Position numbers and translations under genes: made by a program. 64,000 bases of DNA from an uncultured Clostridia bacterium (GTDB taxonomy: Bacteria; Bacillota; Clostridia; TANB77; CAG-465), in the NCBI GenBank assembly GCA_944387385.1, contig CALXES010000004.1, positions 1 to 64,000 on the forward strand. Reading direction: 5' to 3'. The stretch's first letter is position 1. Every line of letters starts with the position of its first letter. Below are positions 53,013-56,230 of this stretch, one piece after another. Under the pieces are notes generated by a model that saw only the letters and a list, made by a program, of their open reading frames with translations, was not told where the DNA came from and ran no database searches.

Positions 53013-53041
53013 TTGACTTTACATAAAAATAATGCTATAAT
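53013..53041 (+). promoter_or_regulatory. Strong extended -10 promoter without a gene behind it
   Basis: TTGACT (53013-53018), a 17-base spacer and TGC-TATAAT with the -10 at 53036-53041. The predicted start is near 53048. No open frame follows before the terminator at 53229. Confidence 0.82.
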
Positions 53042-53047
53042 AAAGAT

Positions 53048-53259
53048 GTAGTTAGATTGGGAATAAAAAAAATAATTTTTTTTAGAATGATGAAACGTAA
53101 GAATTGTTTTAAAAAAATAGTTGTTTCGCAGGCAACTGAAAACACAAGGACTACCAAAACCTTGTGACCAAAAAATTAGATTATATCTAATTTAAAGGAA
53201 AAGCCAATTTAGCTATTTCTTCTCTAAGCCTCATAATGAAAATTATGAGGTGATTTTTT
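53048..53259 (+). ncRNA. Candidate small RNA with own promoter and terminator
   Basis: About 210 bases with no open frame. Visible helices: GAAAC/GTTTC (53092-53096 with 53123-53127) with a 5-base bulge and an inner 9-pair stem (53102-53110 with 53114-53122); CACAAGG/CCTTGTG (53143-53149 with 53160-53166); AATTAGAT/ATCTAATT (53174-53181 with 53185-53192); then the terminator. A conserved-looking unpaired stretch GCAGGCAACTGAAAA lies at 53128-53142. A promoter of high quality stands directly before it. It is not tmRNA, SRP, RNase P or 6S by a quick look, and not one of the riboswitch cores I know. The gene downstream runs the other way, so it is not a leader. Confidence 0.65.
53229..53259 (+). 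terminator. Terminator of the candidate small RNA
   Basis: A 9-bp stem CCTCATAAT/ATTATGAGG (53229-53237 with 53242-53250) with loop GAAA is followed by TGATTTTTT. Confidence 0.88.
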
Positions 53260-53273
53260 ATATGTATAAAGAA

Positions 53274-53299
53274 ATAGGTGGTTTTAATTAACCACCTAT
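53274..53299 (-). terminator. Terminator of the 53304-53714 gene (minus strand)
   Basis: A 10-bp stem (53274-53283 with 53290-53299) is followed on the minus strand by TTTCTTTATA. Confidence 0.75.
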
Positions 53300-53303
53300 A
53301 ATT

Positions 53304-53714
53304 TTAGTCAATTTCTGCTTTTAGAGAAATAGTATAAGGATAGATGTTATTATCGCATCTTAATACAGCAATAACAATCTCTTTTAATCCTTCTGAATTT
53401 TTTTCACTATCACTTAGAAAAGCATCGCATTGTTTTTTAGAATTTTTTTCAATTTTTTCGTATGAAGTTTTAACTCCATCAAAGAATTTTTTCTCAATTC
53501 TTATAGTTACATCATACTGTGAATGATTTGTAACTAAGAATTTAATGCTAGACTTAACATTTTGAGGAATAAAGTGCTTATTTGCAATAAGCGAAATTCC
53601 ACATCCTTCATTTTCTGTTAGATCCGCATTTAGTTTTTGGTTTAAGTCTTTTTCTTCACCAAAATTATTTTTCCCCCAACCAAAGTAAAATCCTTTTTCT
53701 AATTTCTTTTCCAT
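53304..53714 (-). CDS. Unknown protein, 136 residues, beta-rich
   Basis: A soluble protein with short strand-turn repeats (SIKFLVTNHSQYDVTIRIEKKFFDG, IVIAVLRCDNNIYPYTISLKAEI), no signal peptide and no membrane span. GAAAGGAAG precedes the ATG on the minus strand. A very good minus-strand promoter (-35 TTGAAT and -10 TATAAT in the minus orientation, with TGG before the -10) lies upstream, with an inverted repeat at its start site. The folding pattern resembles small immunoglobulin-like or C2-like sandwiches, but I recognise no family. Its neighbour at 53863 on the same strand is also unknown. Confidence 0.78.
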   Translation of the reverse strand: MEKKLEKGFYFGWGKNNFGEEKDLNQKLNADLTENEGCGISLIANKHFIPQNVKSSIKFLVTNHSQYDVTIRIEKKFFDGVKTSYEKIEKNSKKQCDAFLSDSEKNSEGLKEIVIAVLRCDNNIYPYTISLKAEID

Positions 53715-53862: not shown

Positions 53863-54636
53863 TTAATTGTTTAAAATCAAATAGAGATTATCAATATCTA
53901 GGTTTGATAATAAACTAATATCTTCGTCTTTAATTTTATCAAAAAACTTATTTATATAGTATATTTTATAACTAAGTTCTTCTATAGTTTTATCGCTCAT
54001 GTAGTAGTATGATTTATTACCTAATTCTACAAGTAGGTCACATGCAAGATTTTTCTTTAAATCACTAGAGCTATTGTCTTTAATACATTTTGTGATATTT
54101 GAAGTTAAGGTACTTTCTCTTTCTTTATCATATAGTGCTTTATATAATGGAAGAGAAGAATAGTTTTTATTAAAGTATTCTAGTACTTTTTCATTATATG
54201 TATCATAAAACTCTTTTAGTTGATTTAAATTATATACATTTAAGTATTCATCAACAATATGTTTTGAACTTAATGATTTTCTTTGAACAGACAAGTCATT
54301 TACAAGTTCAAATATTCTAGTGCCAATACTTTTCTTTAGTAGATCTATATCGTTATATTCTAAAAATTCCATAAACGCTTCCATAGTCATAAAATCGACT
54401 GATACCAAAAATTTTAGTGGATTATTTAGAGTATCTTCTAAAGAATCTAATAATTTGAAAATATTTGTGTATCTTTGGGTTTTAAAAATATGCATATTTT
54501 CTCTAGATGCTATATAATTAACCTTTCCTTTAGCAGAGTGCACAATAATATTTTCTCCTTTTTTTGTTTGTCCAGAGTATAAGACTTTATCAAGACAAAC
54601 CTCCTTTTTAGAAACATGAGTTCCCATTTTAATCAT
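53863..54636 (-). CDS. Unknown protein, 257 residues
   Basis: A soluble, largely helical protein. The N-terminus has beta strands (VLYSGQTKKGENIIVHSAKGKVNYIAS) and the rest is long charged helices (KSIGTRIFELVNDLSVQRK, KEFYDTYNEKVLEYFNK). No signal peptide, membrane span or catalytic motif is clear. AAGGAGGAATAAAAA precedes the ATG on the minus strand; Met4 is a second option. The mRNA has an unusual leader of about 80 bases with three hairpins (54637-54728), so regulation by RNA structure is likely. The terminator is strong. I do not recognise the family. Confidence 0.78.
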   Translation of the reverse strand: MIKMGTHVSKKEVCLDKVLYSGQTKKGENIIVHSAKGKVNYIASRENMHIFKTQRYTNIFKLLDSLEDTLNNPLKFLVSVDFMTMEAFMEFLEYNDIDLLKKSIGTRIFELVNDLSVQRKSLSSKHIVDEYLNVYNLNQLKEFYDTYNEKVLEYFNKNYSSLPLYKALYDKERESTLTSNITKCIKDNSSSDLKKNLACDLLVELGNKSYYYMSDKTIEELSYKIYYINKFFDKIKDEDISLLSNLDIDNLYLILNN

Positions 54637-54835: not shown

Positions 54836-56230
54836 ATGGACAATTCAAATTTAGATAACTCTGAGACTAAAGAAATAAAAATAAATTCTTCAAATGAAGA
54901 TACTAGAAAAAGTGTTGTTGCTGGAGAGGAAGTTGTATTGCAAGATGATAATAGTTCTGATATAAGAACGAAAAAATTATTAAACAAGAAAATAATTATT
55001 GGTTTAATTTGTATACTTGCAATTATTATATGTGTTGTTGTATACACTCTATTTACATCAGATCAAAAAGATGAAGAAAAAGAAAATATTCCTCAAGAAG
55101 AAGCCGATCTAGTAATTAAAGAAAATGAAACATATGAAGGATTAAATTATACAATGAATGTAGAAGTGATTGAACAATTAGGATTTTTTTATAACTATTC
55201 AAAAGAACTTGAGGGAAATAAAATTGATGTTTCTTATGTAAAAGTATCTGGTTTAAAAGATACAGAACTTGAAGAAAAGATAAATGAAAAGCTTAAATCT
55301 GAAGCAGAGAGTATGTATAATTCAGATAACATACAAGATCCAAATATTTTATATGATCACATATATAATTATACAGATGTGTATATTTTTAATAATGTAC
55401 TTTCAACTTTATACTGTGAAGAGAAGAGTGATGTCAACGGAAATGTTACGTATAGTTATAAAAGTGTAAATATTAATTTAAGAGATTTTGAAGATTTTAC
55501 ACTAAGTGATGTATTTATTAGTGGCACTAATATTGAAGAAATTATAAATTCAAATACAAATGCTACATATTCAGAAGACTTAGTATTTAGTGTTTCTCCA
55601 AAGTTTTTATATGTAGTAAATAATAGTGGAGAAGTAGAAAAAATAAGTTTATATGACAATAAAGAATATATAGCAATTTATAAAAGATTTTTTGATAATA
55701 AAAAATTATTCAATAAGACATTTAATGCAACACCATACGCGTTTACTACTAAGAAATTTATAGAATCTGATGTATATGGTTTAGAAGAAGATAATCTATT
55801 TATAGATACTTGTAATTTGGCTTTAGAATATAATTATAGTGAAGAAATAGAAAGTGCTATAGCACCTTTATATAAAGAAGCTGTTAATAAAGCAAGAAAT
55901 TTATCTTATTCAAATTCTTCAAAAAGATATTTGGTACAAATTGTATCTGATATTGAGAAAATAAATGATAACGAATATAAGTTAAAAGTTGAATATAAAG
56001 AATATGAAATTGCAAAGCAATTTTTTGACGATAGTATAATAGAATTTGTTGTCGCATCAGAGAATAAATCTGATAAGGAAATTAATGTTACTGATTATTT
56101 TGATAATACAGTACTAAATGCAGCAGAATATTTAAACGGTATGGATAGTGAAACTTATACTAAGACAGTAGATGCAAATGGAGTAGAGATTACTCAAAAT
56201 GATAAAAATGTAAATATTGGAATAAGTTAG
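54836..56230 (+). CDS. Membrane-anchored DUF4163/RsiV-like protein
   Basis: A 464-residue single-span protein: an acidic cytoplasmic tail (1-50), a membrane segment (about 53-73) and a large outside part. The outside part resembles the DUF4163-DUF3298 pair of anti-sigma factor RsiV and deacetylase-linked domains (KVSGLKDTELEEKINEKLKSEAES, near 145, and the pattern YSYKSVNINLRDFEDFTLSDVFI, near 210). A cytoplasmic anti-sigma helix motif is not evident and no sigma gene is beside it, so a signalling role is open. GGGAGG precedes the ATG. It is divergent from the 53863 gene and ends at a perfect terminator. Confidence 0.7.
   Translation: MDNSNLDNSETKEIKINSSNEDTRKSVVAGEEVVLQDDNSSDIRTKKLLNKKIIIGLICILAIIICVVVYTLFTSDQKDEEKENIPQEEADLVIKENETYEGLNYTMNVEVIEQLGFFYNYSKELEGNKIDVSYVKVSGLKDTELEEKINEKLKSEAESMYNSDNIQDPNILYDHIYNYTDVYIFNNVLSTLYCEEKSDVNGNVTYSYKSVNINLRDFEDFTLSDVFISGTNIEEIINSNTNATYSEDLVFSVSPKFLYVVNNSGEVEKISLYDNKEYIAIYKRFFDNKKLFNKTFNATPYAFTTKKFIESDVYGLEEDNLFIDTCNLALEYNYSEEIESAIAPLYKEAVNKARNLSYSNSSKRYLVQIVSDIEKINDNEYKLKVEYKEYEIAKQFFDDSIIEFVVASENKSDKEINVTDYFDNTVLNAAEYLNGMDSETYTKTVDANGVEITQNDKNVNIGIS

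Follow-up and report, generated by a model that had tools for sequence, protein, structure and literature searches.

The staphylococcal RNAIII and the Rsa family of RNAs carry C/U-rich loops that are able to pair with Shine-Dalgarno regions. In Listeria monocytogenes, the LhrC family (LhrC1-5) is induced by cell-envelope stress through the two-component system LisRK, and its C/U-rich sites were shown to pair with Shine-Dalgarno regions (PMC4132741). The raiA motif, or ModT RNA, of Clostridia is described as a structured noncoding RNA of Bacillota (PMC11706538). A further stand-alone RNA of about 200 nt is 6S RNA (RF00013), whose 5' and 3' ends are paired and which forms a long rod with a central bubble.

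The stretch studied here is very probably a real RNA gene. It lies at positions 53048 to 53259 on the plus strand of the window, that is, the whole stretch of 64,000 nucleotides from an uncultured Clostridia bacterium that was analyzed. The RNA resembles LhrC in being a Bacillota small RNA with its own promoter and terminator and with a C/U-rich single strand and C/U-rich loops, which in LhrC are the target recognition sites. LhrC is also stress induced, and the promoter of the RNA studied here is of a stress-like class that is shared with pspC and dinB units. It differs from LhrC in that it has no Rfam match, occurs in a single copy in its genome, and is closed by a clamp helix between its 5' and 3' ends. 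LhrC has redundant accessible C/U sites; here most groups of orthologues have a pyrimidine-rich linker and several have C/U loops, with Shine-Dalgarno complementarity weakly above that of shuffles. The C/U-rich loops recall those of RNAIII and the Rsa RNAs, but UCUUCUC and UCUCC predominate here in place of UCCC, and no sequence relation to these RNAs was seen. Like the raiA motif, the RNA is a structured noncoding RNA of Bacillota, but it lacks an Rfam match, is confined to one clade, and showed no link to raiA.

The novelty claimed in the initial annotation held, since no Rfam family, 6S included, matched the window or related loci at the gathering threshold, and a relaxed search (E <= 10) returned only unrelated matches at chance level. 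An identity with 6S RNA was rejected, although both are stand-alone RNAs of about 200 nt with paired ends, because the fold is multibranched and has no central open bubble and because the RF00013 match of the genome lies elsewhere. This 6S candidate (G000:C7:29756-29918) scored 35.5 bits, below the Rfam gathering score, and similar matches were found in 19 of the 28 genus members, the window's genome (G000) included. This lineage appears to escape the Rfam 6S model.

The RNA is a new small RNA family of a kind that is itself known. Its distinctive traits are a fixed frame with a replaced payload and membership of a compact promoter class.

Transcription unit and predicted fold

The promoter at 53013 to 53041 (plus strand), TTGACTTTACATAA-N6-TG-N-TATAAT, consists of TTGACT and TATAAT spaced by 17 bases, with a TG before the -10 hexamer. 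With 11 of 12 consensus matches it corresponds to the near-consensus extended -10 promoter that had been annotated; it has the joint top score in the region and is the only one among the joint top scorers with an extended -10. Transcription is predicted to start at about 53047/53048. The annotated intrinsic terminator (53228 to 53259, plus strand) was also recovered, with a stem at 53228 to 53251 and a U-run that continues to 53259; the scan gave six terminator-like sites in all, compared with 0.4 expected from shuffles. The next gene downstream (53304 to 53714, minus strand) is convergent in G000 and the terminator intervenes, indicating, as had been claimed, that the RNA is not a leader. A cis-acting leader or riboswitch was likewise rejected, since in G000 no co-directional gene follows and the terminator ends the RNA.

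A 10-bp inverted repeat at 53274 to 53299, directly past the terminator of the RNA, had a terminator-like score on both strands and is probably the end of the convergent gene. Another inverted repeat, GTAAAG-n8-CTTTAC, surrounds the -35 region. Its reading as an operator was rejected, because it is absent in several orthologues and in other promoters of the class.

The fold of the 212-nt RNA had a predicted energy of -56.3 kcal/mol, compared with -31.4 +/- 3.5 kcal/mol for dinucleotide-preserving shuffles (z = -7.05), and none of the 200 shuffles was as stable. In the predicted structure, a 13-bp helix (P1) closes the molecule around four inner hairpins and is followed by an 11-nt linker and the terminator. 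P1 is formed by a 5' strand at 53048 to 53060 (GUAGUUAGAUUGG) and a 3' strand at 53204 to 53216 (CCAAUUUAGCUAU). The inner hairpins, all on the plus strand, are H1 (53077 to 53117), which is a long A/U-rich stem; H2 (53118 to 53138); H3 (53143 to 53166; CACAAGG-ACUACCAAAA-CCUUGUG); and H4 (53173 to 53193). The initial annotation had counted at least three perfect hairpins, in agreement with these four, and had not mentioned the closing helix. Its proposal that a single strand at 53128 to 53142 may bind a target or protein was not supported as to the single strand, as most of this segment is the 3' arm of H2; the segment begins with a GCAG that is part of the H2 loop or borders it. A better candidate for a seed is the linker UUCUUCUCUAA (53217 to 53227, plus strand), which is pyrimidine rich, predicted to be single stranded, and potentially complementary to Shine-Dalgarno sequences.

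Conservation of the locus

In a DNA search of 95 genomes, a single near-identical copy was detected in G019 (94%) and a single partial one in G009 (81% over 159 bases), and several shorter matches extended beyond the promoter. Among matches to the 3' motif TAGCTAYTYYTYCTC that were read out, those outside G000, G019, and G011 were without the unit and apparently lay in coding sequence. The slot in the genus was located by protein searches, for which 28 genomes of the genus were taken in. Close homologues of the neighboring gene u464 (54836 to 56230 in the window) were present in 14 of the 28, and these are exactly the genus members with the RNA: each of the 14 has a unit with P1 and terminator that occupies the slot or adjoins ldh. 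The window genes at 53304 to 53714, 53863 to 54636, and 54836 to 56230 (u464) had no significant match to a Pfam or NCBIfam family.

In the 14 genomes, the units adjoin ldh, patatin, aat, u136, or u257. In G014, a single contig carries both the ldh-RNA pair and u464, about 12 kb apart; in G005 and G020, the pair and u464 are on separate contigs. In G016 and G026, the RNA is located between patatin and u464, in a slot where a search for ldh, u136, and u257 found none of them. The RNA was thus kept where neighbors were lost or moved, indicating that it is independent of any single neighbor. The near-identical 29-bp promoter was present in 13 of the 14 genomes, with a different consensus promoter in G004, and the length of the RNA ranged from 158 to 296 nt. 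Promoter, slot, P1, and terminator are kept, even without ldh, and the inner hairpins are almost wholly replaced between groups. The view of the initial annotation that this is an independent small RNA gene is upheld by the lack of an Rfam match and by the retention of these four features across 14 species. The unit has its own promoter and terminator, no conserved frame, and a conserved position and structure, which are among the features of a trans-acting small RNA.

The interior of the RNA is nearly unalignable between groups, yet pairing of the first ~20 nt with a stretch just before the terminator is seen in every species. Native P1 pairings had a mean energy of -16.0 kcal/mol, compared with -8.0 kcal/mol (sd 2.7) for cross-group pairings. 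The native assignment was the unique best of the 40,320 permutations of eight group representatives, in a test in which the terminators of several genomes were picked by eye and the choice for G025 was guided by the pairing. P1 was weak in G006 (z = -1.7). Three subgroups showed compensatory changes at 9, 6, and 6 inner pairs, respectively; 17 pairs in the first subgroup and 15 in the second were broken in at least one member, partly through alignment shifts.

Shared promoter class and putative regulon

The exact motif TTGACTTTACATAA-N6-TGNTATAAT (29 bp) occurred at 3, 3, 4, 4, 5, and 5 sites in six RNA-bearing genomes, with few near-matches, and a reversed-pattern control gave no exact match. 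Each of the 24 exact sites lies upstream of a unit that recurs among the genomes, and there are six such units. The RNA and a ~205-aa membrane protein beginning MYY follow the promoter in all six genomes, and a ~240- to 277-aa protein does so in five of the six. A dinB operon, encoding a small protein and a DinB-type DNA-repair polymerase (Pfam PF00817), is preceded by the motif in three genomes. The remaining units are a PspC-domain protein (Pfam PF04024; three genomes, plus one at one mismatch) and a protein read from sequence alone as a putative thioester-domain surface protein (one genome, plus one at one mismatch). As the exact sites are few and always precede these six units, the RNA looks like a member of a small regulon, probably of a stress type. 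The shared motif provides a handle on what turns the RNA on.

In G000, sites of the class lie at C4:75325, C5:80273, and C5:85139 (L124, L130, and L136), and three further genera of the family have the motif at one mismatch. In G014 (L096), a co-directional gene downstream of the RNA encodes a large secreted protein resembling a thioester-domain adhesin; another member of the promoter class, in G009, likewise encodes a thioester-adhesin-like protein.

The 95-genome DNA search, the promoter-site survey, and the tree gave no instance of the RNA beyond a single clade of the genus. In the tree of the membrane protein with the class promoter, a branch with support of 100/99 separated the six sampled RNA-bearing genomes from the others. 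In genus and family members that lack the RNA, all promoter sites that were fetched precede protein frames. Together, these results suggest a single origin of the RNA gene, within one genus clade and under a type of promoter that was already being used.

Proposed function and alternatives

The best explanation, which we put forward tentatively, is a regulon-linked small RNA that would act in trans on ribosome-binding sites through a C/U-rich linker or loop, in the way shown for LhrC. In most groups, 6 to 8 of the first 8 nt after P1 are pyrimidines, a rule that fails in G004, G006, and G025. The pyrimidine runs directly after P1 are UCUUCUCUAA, CUCCU, CUUCUCAA, CUUCUUAA, UUUUCUCC, CUUCUUUU, and ACUCCUU. 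Exposed C/U-rich hairpin loops take the place of such a run, or occur alongside it, in G004, G006, G025, and the G014 group. Accessible Shine-Dalgarno complementarity was weakly above that of shuffles, with individual z values of +1.1 to -1.8 and a post hoc combination over eight groups of about -2.2. The best accessible match to the start region of u464 was a C/U-rich stretch in every RNA and a linker or loop in nearly all of them, and for the u464 mRNA there was no preference for native over cross pairing across species (permutation fraction, 0.14). The linker paired with the start regions of window genes at -5.9 kcal/mol, compared with a background of -2.75 kcal/mol (sd 2.8), a preference that is not specific because any C/U stretch would bind Shine-Dalgarno sequences.

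The weakness of these statistics is in line with a structured RNA that has no mRNA seed and mainly binds or titrates a protein, as a sponge, a scaffold, or a 6S-like mimic of polymerase or ribosome. The strong fold and the clamp helix would suit such a role, as would an H2-type hairpin whose loop contains or borders a GCAG, which was seen in five sequences of different groups (G000/G019, G009, G012, G003, and G006). However, the inner hairpins are almost wholly replaced between groups, which would be unusual if the protein partner were fixed; the 14 RNAs have no repeated protein-binding motif common to all of them, and the genome has its 6S match at another locus. We consider this alternative rather unlikely.

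The retention of promoter, clamp, terminator, and slot around an interior that cannot be aligned between groups could also point to a fast-evolving RNA that keeps its frame and whose payload is shaped by conflict (antitoxin-like, antiphage, or directed against another mobile-element RNA), and dinB and PspC are in the same promoter class. The same picture would result, however, from plain drift of an RNA under loose constraint. Adjoining the RNA, no gene for a toxin, reverse transcriptase, or Cas protein was noticed, no match was found in phage records or plasmids, and viral contigs had none for one hairpin pattern. We consider a conflict-shaped payload quite improbable. A decayed or chance structure with no function, to which the confinement of the RNA to one genus clade might point, is very hard to reconcile with the z value of -7.05, the near-identical promoter in 13 species, and the covarying clamp in 14. 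Least probable, and largely refuted already, is an mRNA for a small protein: contrary to the annotation of no open frame, an ATG frame of 26 codons (53087 to 53167; 26 aa) exists, but it is not conserved, since stops interrupt it in G019 (94% identical DNA) and G009, it has no clear ribosome-binding site, and no frame common to the RNAs was seen.

Under the preferred explanation of a trans-acting small RNA, transcription of a stand-alone regulatory RNA of ~212 nt would start at its own strong promoter and end at its own terminator. P1 would close the RNA and hold the lineage-specific hairpins. The RNA would belong to a promoter-defined regulon that includes, depending on the species, the dinB operon, PspC, two conserved proteins without a family assignment, and the putative surface protein. 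Because this small regulon is shared, we infer that the RNA is probably made when a stress regulator is active. The linker, or a pyrimidine-rich loop in other species, would then most likely pair with ribosome-binding sites in trans, and such pairing would lower translation of the mRNAs.

Implications

A bolder possibility, which we regard as unlikely, is that the RNA represents a class with a fixed frame whose payload was repeatedly replaced between sister species and which is tied to a previously undescribed TTGACTTTACATAA-N6-TGNTATAAT regulon. If so, the payload would have been replaced under changing selection, through an arms race or target switching, with expression tied to a small regulon that also contains dinB, pspC, and the putative surface protein.

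The RNA adds a well-delimited small RNA gene to the uncultured Clostridia, in which regulatory RNAs have been little studied. Its 14 orthologues form a natural series for telling frame from payload, and this series is suited to testing how small RNAs switch targets while expression and folding are kept.
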